A stretch of 49,241 bases of DNA. It comes from a virus. The stretch is from the IMG/VR virus record IMGVR_UViG_3300021963_000192, positions 1 through 49,241 of that record. The stretch is one strand, 5' to 3'. The notes beneath the pieces are model-generated. The model saw nothing but the letters and a program-made list of their open reading frames with translations. It did no database searches and had not been told where the DNA came from. Positions 45,189 to 47,599 of the stretch are shown piece after piece; position 1 is the first letter of the stretch, and every line of letters begins with the position of its first letter. Both the position numbers and the translations under genes were made by a program.

Positions 45189-45482
45189 ATGAAAAAATTA
45201 ATCGAATTAATTAAAACTTATAAACTAGAGATACTTATTTTTCTAACAGTTATTTTCTTTTTTCGCTCTTGTAGCAATTCAAGTAAGGTGACTAAGTTAG
45301 AAAAAATTGAAAAACAAAATATCTCAACGATTGATAGTCTTAAGATTAAGCATAAAAACGAAAAAATAGCAATTCACGGTTTTTATGACAATTGGATTAC
45401 AGAAAAAGACAGAGGGCCACAGTTAATGGAATTACATTTAATTGTTAAGGAAAATTTAAAAAAAGAACAAGAATCTAAATGA
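45189..45482 (+). CDS. Small single-pass membrane protein (97 aa)
   Basis: The N terminus MKKLIELIKTYKLEILIFLT is followed by VIFFFRSCSNSS. One hydrophobic helix covers ~14-26. The Cys at the end is preceded by Arg, so it is not a convincing lipobox. The rest is polar and helical (KVTKLEKIEKQNISTIDSLK, then LMELHLIVKENLKKEQESK), consistent with a bitopic membrane protein whose C-terminal domain faces the periplasm or cytoplasm. The next gene starts 4 nt before its stop (ATGA overlap), so the two are translationally coupled and may interact. A holin or antiholin-type role is possible by size, but there is no other evidence. Confidence 0.6.
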   Translation: MKKLIELIKTYKLEILIFLTVIFFFRSCSNSSKVTKLEKIEKQNISTIDSLKIKHKNEKIAIHGFYDNWITEKDRGPQLMELHLIVKENLKKEQESK

Positions 45483-46768
45483 AAAATTGGTTAGAGAAAA
45501 ATTATAAAACATTAATAATTGCCGCGTTCTTGGTTCCGATCATTACCGTCGCTATTGTTTCTATTTCACATGTGACTAAATGGTATGGGATATCAAACCC
45601 ACTTACCTGGTCAGTGTATTTGTCAATAGGTGTGGAGATCGCAGCATTATCAGCATTAGCTGCCATATCGGCAAACATGGGTAAGAAAGTTTACTTCCCA
45701 TTTGCAATTGTAACAATAATTCAATTTATTGGAAATATCTTTTTTGCCTATTCATATATTGACATCAATGGTCAATCATTTAAAGATTGGGTTGGTTTAG
45801 TTTCACCATTAGTCGAATTTATGGGTGTGGAACCAACTGATTTTGTTGGGCATAAGAGATTTTTAGCATTTTTTGCCGGCGGTATGTTACCAATTATATC
45901 TTTATCGTTTCTTCATATGTTAGTTAAGTTTACAGAGGAGGATAGAAATAATCAAAAAGAAAACATTTTAAATAAGGTACAAGATAATGTTATCTCAAGT
46001 GATATCGAAGACGAAACCAATAGACTTAAATTATCAGAAAGAGATTTGGAGATCTTAGAAAAACATTTAGCGAATCCAAATCCACCAAATGAAGCATTAA
46101 TCAATGCAGCACAAAAATATAGTGATCAGGTTAGAGAGAAACACACACATATTAATGACTTTGATGAAACGTCAGTTAAACCACAACTAACACGAGAAGA
46201 ACGTGGCGAAATTTTGGCTGAGATGATGGAGAATGATCAAAAGTTGGGTCTATATGACGAACCATTTGACAATCCATTAATTAGCCCCGAAACGACGTCA
46301 ACATTAAATGTACCTGAAATGATGTTAACAACTAATCAAGAGATTATTGAATCTATTCCATCAGATGATGAATTTAGTGATTGGGATGTGACATTGATGG
46401 ACGGATTAGAAGATGAGGTATCATTTTTTACTGAAGAAGAAATTGAGAATTTTTTCCAAGAAAAACCAACCGAAGAAGAAACAGATCAAAATTTTTCCAC
46501 TATAACCCCTAAAATCGCGAATATTTTCCAAGAAGAAGATTTTGTTCCTGGATTATCTGATGAGGAAATAATGGAAATGAATCAAGATGAATACGAAAGA
46601 AAATTAGATATGGAAGATGAGTTTGATGGATTTGTCCCTGAACCATTTGCCACACCAGAAGAAGTTGAAAAATTCAATATAGACGAAACTTTTAATGATC
46701 AATTTTCTGAGGATGGACTTTATGAAGAGGCCGAAGACTCTGCTGAGGATGACGAAAAAAAAAAATAA
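45479..46768 (+). CDS. Polytopic membrane protein with long acidic C-terminal tail (429 aa)
   Basis: Residues 1-150 contain four likely membrane helices: TLIIAAFLVPIITVAIVSIS, VYLSIGVEIAALSALAAISA, PFAIVTIIQFIGNIFFAYSY and FLAFFAGGMLPIISLSFLHM. From ~160 the protein is soluble, with a short coiled coil (RLKLSERDLEILEKHL) and a very acidic, low-complexity tail rich in Glu and Asp (EDEVSFFTEEEIENFFQEKP) ending EDDEKKK. The stop codon TAA-TAG comes immediately after an 11-A run (46755-46765). A -1 frameshift or slippage there would append ~80 residues rich in Pro and Thr. The protein overlaps the preceding small membrane protein by 4 nt. I do not recognise the family. Its arrangement suggests an inner-membrane protein with cytoplasmic acidic tail. 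Confidence 0.68.
   Translation: MKNWLEKNYKTLIIAAFLVPIITVAIVSISHVTKWYGISNPLTWSVYLSIGVEIAALSALAAISANMGKKVYFPFAIVTIIQFIGNIFFAYSYIDINGQSFKDWVGLVSPLVEFMGVEPTDFVGHKRFLAFFAGGMLPIISLSFLHMLVKFTEEDRNNQKENILNKVQDNVISSDIEDETNRLKLSERDLEILEKHLANPNPPNEALINAAQKYSDQVREKHTHINDFDETSVKPQLTREERGEILAEMMENDQKLGLYDEPFDNPLISPETTSTLNVPEMMLTTNQEIIESIPSDDEFSDWDVTLMDGLEDEVSFFTEEEIENFFQEKPTEEETDQNFSTITPKIANIFQEEDFVPGLSDEEIMEMNQDEYERKLDMEDEFDGFVPEPFATPEEVEKFNIDETFNDQFSEDGLYEEAEDSAEDDEKKK
46755..46765 (+). promoter_or_regulatory. 11-A homopolymer at the end of the membrane-protein gene (possible slippage site)
   Basis: The run GACG-A11-TAATAG sits directly before the tandem stop codons. Such runs promote transcriptional slippage or -1 ribosomal frameshifting. 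In the -1 frame the sequence is open for ~83 codons. Confidence 0.5.
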
Positions 46769-47016
46769 TAGAGAATCCTTTACCTACAGAAACACCTTTA
46801 CCCACGGAAACAATAAGCCCAACTAGCACACCTGAGCCAACTAACACGCCTGAGCCAACTAGTACAATGTTTCCAACTAACACACCGACACCAACATTAA
46901 CGGAGACGCCAACTCCTATACCAACAAATTTTGTTGGGGACACACCAAGAATATTAATTGGTGGTTTTAAAACAATACAAAGAAATGTTAGAAATTCTAG
47001 ACGCAGAAACTTTTAA
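46766..47016 (+). other. Out-of-frame Pro-Thr-rich coding extension (possible -1 frameshift product or remnant)
   Basis: In the frame one base back from the membrane-protein gene, bases ~46762-47016 encode IIENPLPTETPLPTETIS, then repeated PTNTPEPTSTM and NTPTPTLTETPTPIPT, ending with a basic tail (NFVGDTPRILIGGFKT ... RNSRRRNF). The frame has no good start codon; a TGA at 46750-46752 closes it upstream, and the only ATG (46867) is internal to the Pro-Thr part. It overlaps the next gene's start by 32 nt. It resembles the Thr-Pro linkers of the tail genes. It is either the product of slippage on the 11-A run, a broken fusion, or a sequencing error in the homopolymer. Confidence 0.55.
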
Positions 47017-47599
47017 ATTTAAATTAAAAAAAAAGAAATATAAGAAATCACAGATTCTTTTGTATGATACTAAAAGGAAATATGATGATTTCATGAAAAT
47101 GTTAAAATATAGAAGAAATGGGAATTATGATGACATCCCTCATTTTTGTGTTACTAAGAGTGGCAAGATATATAAAATACTGGAGCCCGAATATAACTCA
47201 AATACTTTCAACAATGATAGTGTAGATCGAAAACAGATAAAAATAGCTGTTGAGAACTTAGGTTGGTTAAATAAAAACACAATTACCGGAATATACAATA
47301 ACTGGATTAATGATCCATTTAGGGGCACTCCACACGTTAGGGGTTGGAGAGGCTATTTCTATTGGGATGTCTATACTGAAGACCAATTAAAGGCCCTAGC
47401 CGAGCTTTGTTTCGTGTTATGTATCAAATATAGCATAACCTATCGATGTGTTCCATCTTCTGGTTATATAGAAAACGCAAAAAACATTGATGGAATAGTC
47501 AGTAAATCAAATTTCTTTGATATTTATACTGATATAAACCCTTCGTTTAATTTTAATATATTTGAAGAAAATGTCAAACAAGCAGAATCTAGGTTATGA
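46985..47599 (+). CDS. Amidase_2-like protein with degenerate active site
   Basis: From the ATG at 46985 the protein is about 204 residues. The middle and C terminus follow the pattern of N-acetylmuramoyl-L-alanine amidase (T7 lysozyme/PGRP) proteins: IPHFCVTKSGKIYKILEPEY, then IKIAVENLGWL ('IgIElen.g.l'), YTEDQLKALAELCFVLCIKY, and GIVSKSNF with a terminal TDINPSFNF. Key residues are missing: the first zinc His region reads QILLYDTK instead of a VIHHT-like motif, and the later ligand position in GIVSKSNF has Lys where His is expected. It is therefore probably catalytically inactive, possibly a wall-binding or virion protein. A TTG at 46958 is an alternative start. It overlaps the Pro-Thr frame by ~32 nt and the next gene by 29 nt. 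Confidence 0.66.
   Translation: MLEILDAETFKFKLKKKKYKKSQILLYDTKRKYDDFMKMLKYRRNGNYDDIPHFCVTKSGKIYKILEPEYNSNTFNNDSVDRKQIKIAVENLGWLNKNTITGIYNNWINDPFRGTPHVRGWRGYFYWDVYTEDQLKALAELCFVLCIKYSITYRCVPSSGYIENAKNIDGIVSKSNFFDIYTDINPSFNFNIFEENVKQAESRL

Follow-up and report, generated by a model that had tools for sequence, protein, structure and literature searches.

Known frameshifts of tailed phages are mostly ribosomal. In lambda G/GT and its kin, tail-assembly chaperone genes gain a C-terminal extension in the −1 frame at a conserved ribosomal slippery site (PMC5009743). RNA polymerase slippage yields two length variants of the inner-membrane protein encoded by tssM, a cellular T6SS secretion gene: in Citrobacter rodentium tssM1, which carries an A11 run close before its stop codon, slippage gives the long form (20 to 25%), and in Y. 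pseudotuberculosis tssM3 it gives the short form (PMC4256274). For tssM, the RNA itself was examined by mass spectrometry, and the ratio of the two forms proved to matter (PMC4256274). In Thermus thermophilus dnaX, a cellular replication gene, polymerase slippage on an A9 run also makes two length variants, the genome frame encoding the long form and the short form being the slippage product (described in PMC1088944). Shigella spa13 has an A10 run (PMC6260861), and its slip adds a C-terminal extension that overlaps the start of the next gene and affects that gene's expression; for both spa13 and spa32, downstream translation is described as coupled to the slip (PMC5009743). Many bacteria have a slippage threshold of about nine A's, and conservation of both the run and the extension is a published sign of purposeful slippage (PMC1088944).

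The gene described here encodes a membrane protein in a large family of uncultured giant phages. It resembles tssM1 and tssM3 in that slippage would give an inner-membrane protein in two lengths, with an A11 close before the stop codon as in tssM1, and the long-versus-short designs of the two tssM genes form the same mirror image as 41 versus 4 of the phage lineages described below. It differs in that tssM encodes an unrelated protein and offers few cases, whereas the phage family offers many lineages, known from sequence alone. As in spa13, the slip would add a C-terminal extension that overlaps the start of the next gene, although gene and function are different. In four lineages (L035, L044, L050, and L067) the long form is encoded directly in the genome frame, a feature shared with T. 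thermophilus dnaX. With G/GT it shares a phage C-terminal extension in the −1 frame and a conserved slippery site, but the membrane gene lies before an amidase gene and has 9 to 11 A's and no structure. A literature search of partial coverage found no paper that describes a tailed-phage gene with a conserved site of polymerase slippage. We regard the site as a phage version of a recoding type already known, in which slippage is probably transcriptional and would give two forms of the membrane protein.

Results

The window, by which we mean the whole stretch of DNA analyzed, is the 49,241-base virus record IMGVR_UViG_3300021963_000192, and its sequence was read from the assembly. It carries T4-like genes for a baseplate wedge protein, SbcC/SbcD-like recombination nucleases, a sigma factor, and a ribonucleotide reductase. 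Because the nearest relatives of this reductase are those of Tenacibaculum and Cellulophaga phages, a Bacteroidota host is suggested. The membrane-protein gene is flanked by the sigma factor and amidase genes (Table 1). Just 5′ of it lies a 97-amino-acid (aa) ORF (45189 to 45482) that has a single hydrophobic stretch at its N terminus and is charged over the rest, spanin-like in outline only; in relatives this ORF is 84 to 91% identical in some and weak or absent in others.

The membrane ORF ends in GAA AAA AAA AAA TAA (46754 to 46768), followed by TAG (46769 to 46771), so that the tandem stops after an A11 run described in the earlier note were borne out. The −1 frame is closed by a TGA at 46750 to 46752 and is thereafter open; a shift into it must therefore fall within 46753 to 46768, on the run. 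As that note had also reported, the −1 frame stays open for 83 codons, which encode a Pro/Thr-rich stretch and then a basic end (KTIQRNVRNSRRRNF). One A inserted at A11, or a −1 frameshift, would give a long form of 512 aa. The further claim that the −1 frame has no start codon held for the first third of the tail; beyond it an in-frame ATG is found at 46867, which is not conserved (L039 has Ile there). Since this sole in-frame ATG is not conserved, an independent start of the tail was rejected. The amidase ATG sits within the RNV codons of the tail, and the two genes overlap by 32 nucleotides (nt). Outside the membrane gene, the window's amidase gene carries an A9 run (47026 to 47034), which was not seen at that place in L001 and is one of only three runs of at least nine A's in the other coding sequence of these phages; an A10 run at 1510 to 1519 spans and follows the stop codon of the ORF at 534 to 1511 and is noncoding.

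Table 1. Positions of features at the membrane-protein locus, in window coordinates unless given as codons of the membrane gene
Feature	Position	Strand	Description
Membrane-protein ORF, short form, 429 aa	45479..46768	+	Ends EDDEKKK*
Slippery run A11 (candidate)	46755..46765	+	A9-A11 at homologous place in 41 slip lineages, A10 in 4 continuous-ORF lineages
0-frame stops TAA-TAG ending short form	46766..46771	+	Directly after run; 0-4 codons after run in slip lineages
−1 frame tail	46768..47016	+	Pro/Thr-rich linker, then basic end RNVRNSRRRNF, stop TAA 47014-47016
Amidase gene	46985..47599	+	Amidase_2, PF01510, 30.4 bits, cut-off 26
Extra A9-A10 runs, membrane gene	L035 codon 258, L044 codon 267, L050 codon 387, L065 codon 166, L071 codon 212, L073 codon 216, L089 codon 223		

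Counting the window, 85 distinct homologs of the N-terminal domain were recovered by scanning IMG/VR viral contigs, and they fell into three classes. In 41/85 (class i, slip; a count that leaves out L069, whose gene is cut by the contig end), the membrane ORF ends with A9 (2 lineages), A10 (most), or A11, and the −1 frame is open for 33 to 152 codons. The phase of head to tail is identical in 41/41 slip lineages, and one more A or a −1 frameshift enters the tail, whereas the codons at the run differ (GAA AAA AAA AAN, TTA AAA AAA AAA, or GTA AAA AAA AAG). The earlier note had named lack of the −1 frame in relatives, or a run length that alters the phase, as grounds for rejecting slippage; checked on the assemblies, the proposal held, with A9, A10, and A11 all in one phase. 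The four class ii lineages have one continuous ORF of 406 to 521 aa with the same basic terminal motif, and the A10 is kept. Class iii consists of 40 short proteins (223 to 304 aa) with no run at the site and no tail, forming a distant sister clade. A run of A9 to A11 is thus present in 45/45 lineages of the long clade (slip plus continuous) and is never shorter than nine. Elsewhere, about 7 runs of at least 10 A's occurred in 469 kb from related loci, the four same-site runs of the continuous-ORF relatives having been removed; given this rarity and the 41 relatives with the same site and phase, the A11 at the ORF end is not a chance occurrence. A genome collection searched for relatives yielded none; a 462-kb phage record encodes a single distant homolog, which is without the run and has a different downstream gene.

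In a quick tree built from the N-terminal domain and the amidase, with SH-aLRT support only, a branch separates class iii from the others, and the four class ii lineages stand singly at four places inside class i; the frame has therefore probably changed about four times with the run retained, and by the starred branches the continuous ORF must have arisen independently at least twice. The long branch of L038 is probably an artifact, its tail having been taken in place of the amidase. Loss of one A in class ii leads to a stop after 1 (L044), 2 (L050), or 2 (L067) residues, the mirror image of the slip design, and in L067 the gain of one A also leads to a stop after 1 residue. The mirror image is imperfect in L035, in which the slipped frames continue for 17 and 21 codons. 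L035 has a Pro-Thr-rich linker in the 0 frame upstream of its A10, about 190 to 400 bases before the ORF end; from this lineage, Pro-Thr-rich linkers seem to move between parts of the membrane gene.

We compared substitutions 5′ of the amidase gene, as the amidase itself may in part account for conservation over its start. The tail there had a pN/pS of 0.43, and the upstream linker, read in its own frame, had one of 0.41 (18 relative pairs, 984 codons; pairs not all independent), and tail substitutions numbered 153, 190, and 286 at the three codon positions. By this pattern, the tail evolves as protein, and its −1 frame is subject to purifying selection. In 36/41 slip lineages the tail finishes with ..RNVxN(S/T)xRRxF(R) or near it, overlapping the amidase start in a fixed phase. 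Aligned at the amidase ATG, tails from most of the long clade read K(K/R)xxxR|NVxN(S/T)xRRxF(R) or close to it, and the sister clade ends in (K/R)(R/K)LSYxRR|DA*. The ends of slip, continuous, and sister-clade proteins all cross the amidase ATG in one phase; the slipped frame thus encodes the homologous C terminus, the long form being probably ancestral and the truncated form derived. In five lineages of the slip type (L054, L091, L094, L095, and L099) the tail ends just short of the amidase ATG, and the basic end is missing. The Pro-Thr linker, which the earlier note had picked out, proved to occur only in the window's sub-branch and in a few others; most relatives have an acidic tail linker, many carry the motif LYWExDDxNPxQ(V/I)IYDLENN, and the conserved part is the basic C terminus.

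The N-terminal domain of the membrane protein (45479 to 45946; about 156 aa) has four predicted long hydrophobic helices (AlphaFold2, residues 9 to 36, 41 to 64, 68 to 93, and 122 to 162) and is followed by an acidic low-complexity linker of about 270 aa (net charge −58 over 273 aa). This domain is 74 to 94% identical to that of the window across phages whose linkers share little, and in conservation it usually surpasses the rest of the neighborhood (identity to the window of 48 to 94% for the sigma factor and 31 to 91% for the amidase). Searches of the membrane protein sequence against PHROG, NCBIfam, and PDB gave no match, and Pfam gave only a subthreshold match to TacA1 (17.8 bits; cut-off 21). 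A fold search found no PDB match below an E value of 2.5 and, in BFVD, two uncharacterized phage homologs only. The four predicted helices and the adjoining amidase bring a holin to mind, and a PHROG holin match occurred in one relative only, at chance level (E = 0.32); such high conservation is unusual for a holin. A tail assembly chaperone of the G/GT kind was rejected, given the membrane domain, the sigma factor and amidase neighbors, and the lack of a PHROG match.

To make the long form, −1 ribosomal frameshifting on an A_AAA_AAA heptamer could serve in place of polymerase slippage, the polymerase then copying the run faithfully. Every run holds an in-phase A_AAA_AAA or A_AAA_AAN, the former a known −1 heptamer (PMC3711429), a −1 shift is what 41/41 slip lineages need, and ribosomes slide on iterated AAA codons (PMC4363877). 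The heptamer, however, requires just 7 A's, and all 45 lineages keep at least 9. No RNA structure was evident within 70 nt 3′ of the run in the 41 slip lineages (mean z, −0.35; 3/41 below −2; pseudoknot-free folding), and those 70 nt in the window have a minimum free energy of −1.0 kcal/mol and no stem-loop. The E. coli dnaX frameshift uses a Shine-Dalgarno stimulator, which would be unlikely in the probable Bacteroidota host. The four phase-flipped lineages also keep A10, so that the codon phase of a −1 site is not fixed among homologs, and for L044 and L050 it is the base-loss frame that soon meets a stop, a frame beyond the reach of −1 frameshifting. On these grounds we consider a purely ribosomal shift unlikely. 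Separately, the 70 nt upstream of the run showed a mild folding bias (mean z, −1.28).

Other genes of the slip and continuous lineages bear on the same choice. Lys-Lys-Lys was encoded as AAAAAAAAA (AAA AAA AAA) in 0/127 instances, versus about 54 of 127 expected from codon use alone (AAA being 75% of Lys codons), and only 3 runs of at least nine A's occurred in 285 kb of other coding sequence; by these counts, selection acts against such A runs in the rest of the coding sequence of these phages. The linkers encoded by class i and ii genes hold seven further A9-A10 runs (Table 1), giving 7 in 55 kb versus the 3 in 285 kb elsewhere, at a threshold chosen after seeing the data and with some of the lineages related. 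Loss of one A led to a stop within 2 codons in 7/7 of these, versus 46/195 A5-A8 runs (Fisher P = 6e-5). The extra runs may be further slippage sites giving a nested set of truncations, which we offer as a lead.

Discussion

We consider it likely that A11 is a programmed slippage site at which RNA polymerase slippage makes two length variants of the membrane protein. The earlier note had proposed programmed slippage to a short and a tailed form, and this is strongly supported by the 41 slip lineages, together with the 4 in which the tail is already in frame. Slippage by the polymerase is clearly favored over slippage by the ribosome, although both may act. On the run, RNA polymerase would sometimes add or drop an A; unslipped mRNA would give the short protein of 429 aa, with its acidic linker and KKK end, and mRNA with one extra A (or two fewer) would give the 512-aa long form with the conserved basic C terminus. 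The coding sequence of the long form would extend 32 nt into the amidase gene. We infer a transcriptional rather than a ribosomal slip, production of both proteins, a role for the slip-set ratio of these two length variants of one membrane-anchored protein, and coupling of the amidase, the share of ribosomes reaching its start being tied to the same slip.

The place before the amidase would allow a role in lysis control, and the overlap would allow amidase translation to be coupled to the slip, by analogy with the coupling described for spa13 and spa32. One tentative extension, which we would not rate highly, is a ratio-setter: polymerase slippage would give a minority of full-length and a majority of truncated membrane (possibly lysis) protein, only the slipped fraction would bring ribosomes to the amidase start, and the extra runs in several lineages would add truncations.

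Much less probable than either transcriptional or ribosomal slippage is phase variation at the DNA level, in which replication slippage would toggle the run in a phage population and each virion would encode one form. A10 to A11 is long enough for replication slippage, and the other phase is found in four lineages, but contig pairs at 97 to 99.9% identity (assemblies only) aligned without gaps across the gene and showed no run-length difference, and identical sets of 12, 5, and 4 contigs had one run length within each set. The third possible phase was never seen, and A9, A10, and A11 are all in one phase; length changes thus appear to be compensated rather than left to toggle. Hardly credible is a homopolymer error that hides a run joining the frames, or a decayed gene with the tail as an untranslated spacer, since, although one A more would yield a single 512-aa gene, the same error would need to recur in 41 lineages and at three run lengths, the conserved phase across run lengths rules out sequencing error, purifying selection acts on the −1 frame of the tail, and the long C terminus is in frame in four relatives.

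In this phage family, plain ORF calling misses the conserved C terminus of the membrane protein. The family offers over 40 natural variants, four phase flips among them, with which polymerase slippage can be told apart from ribosome slippage and the need of the membrane protein for two lengths can be addressed.
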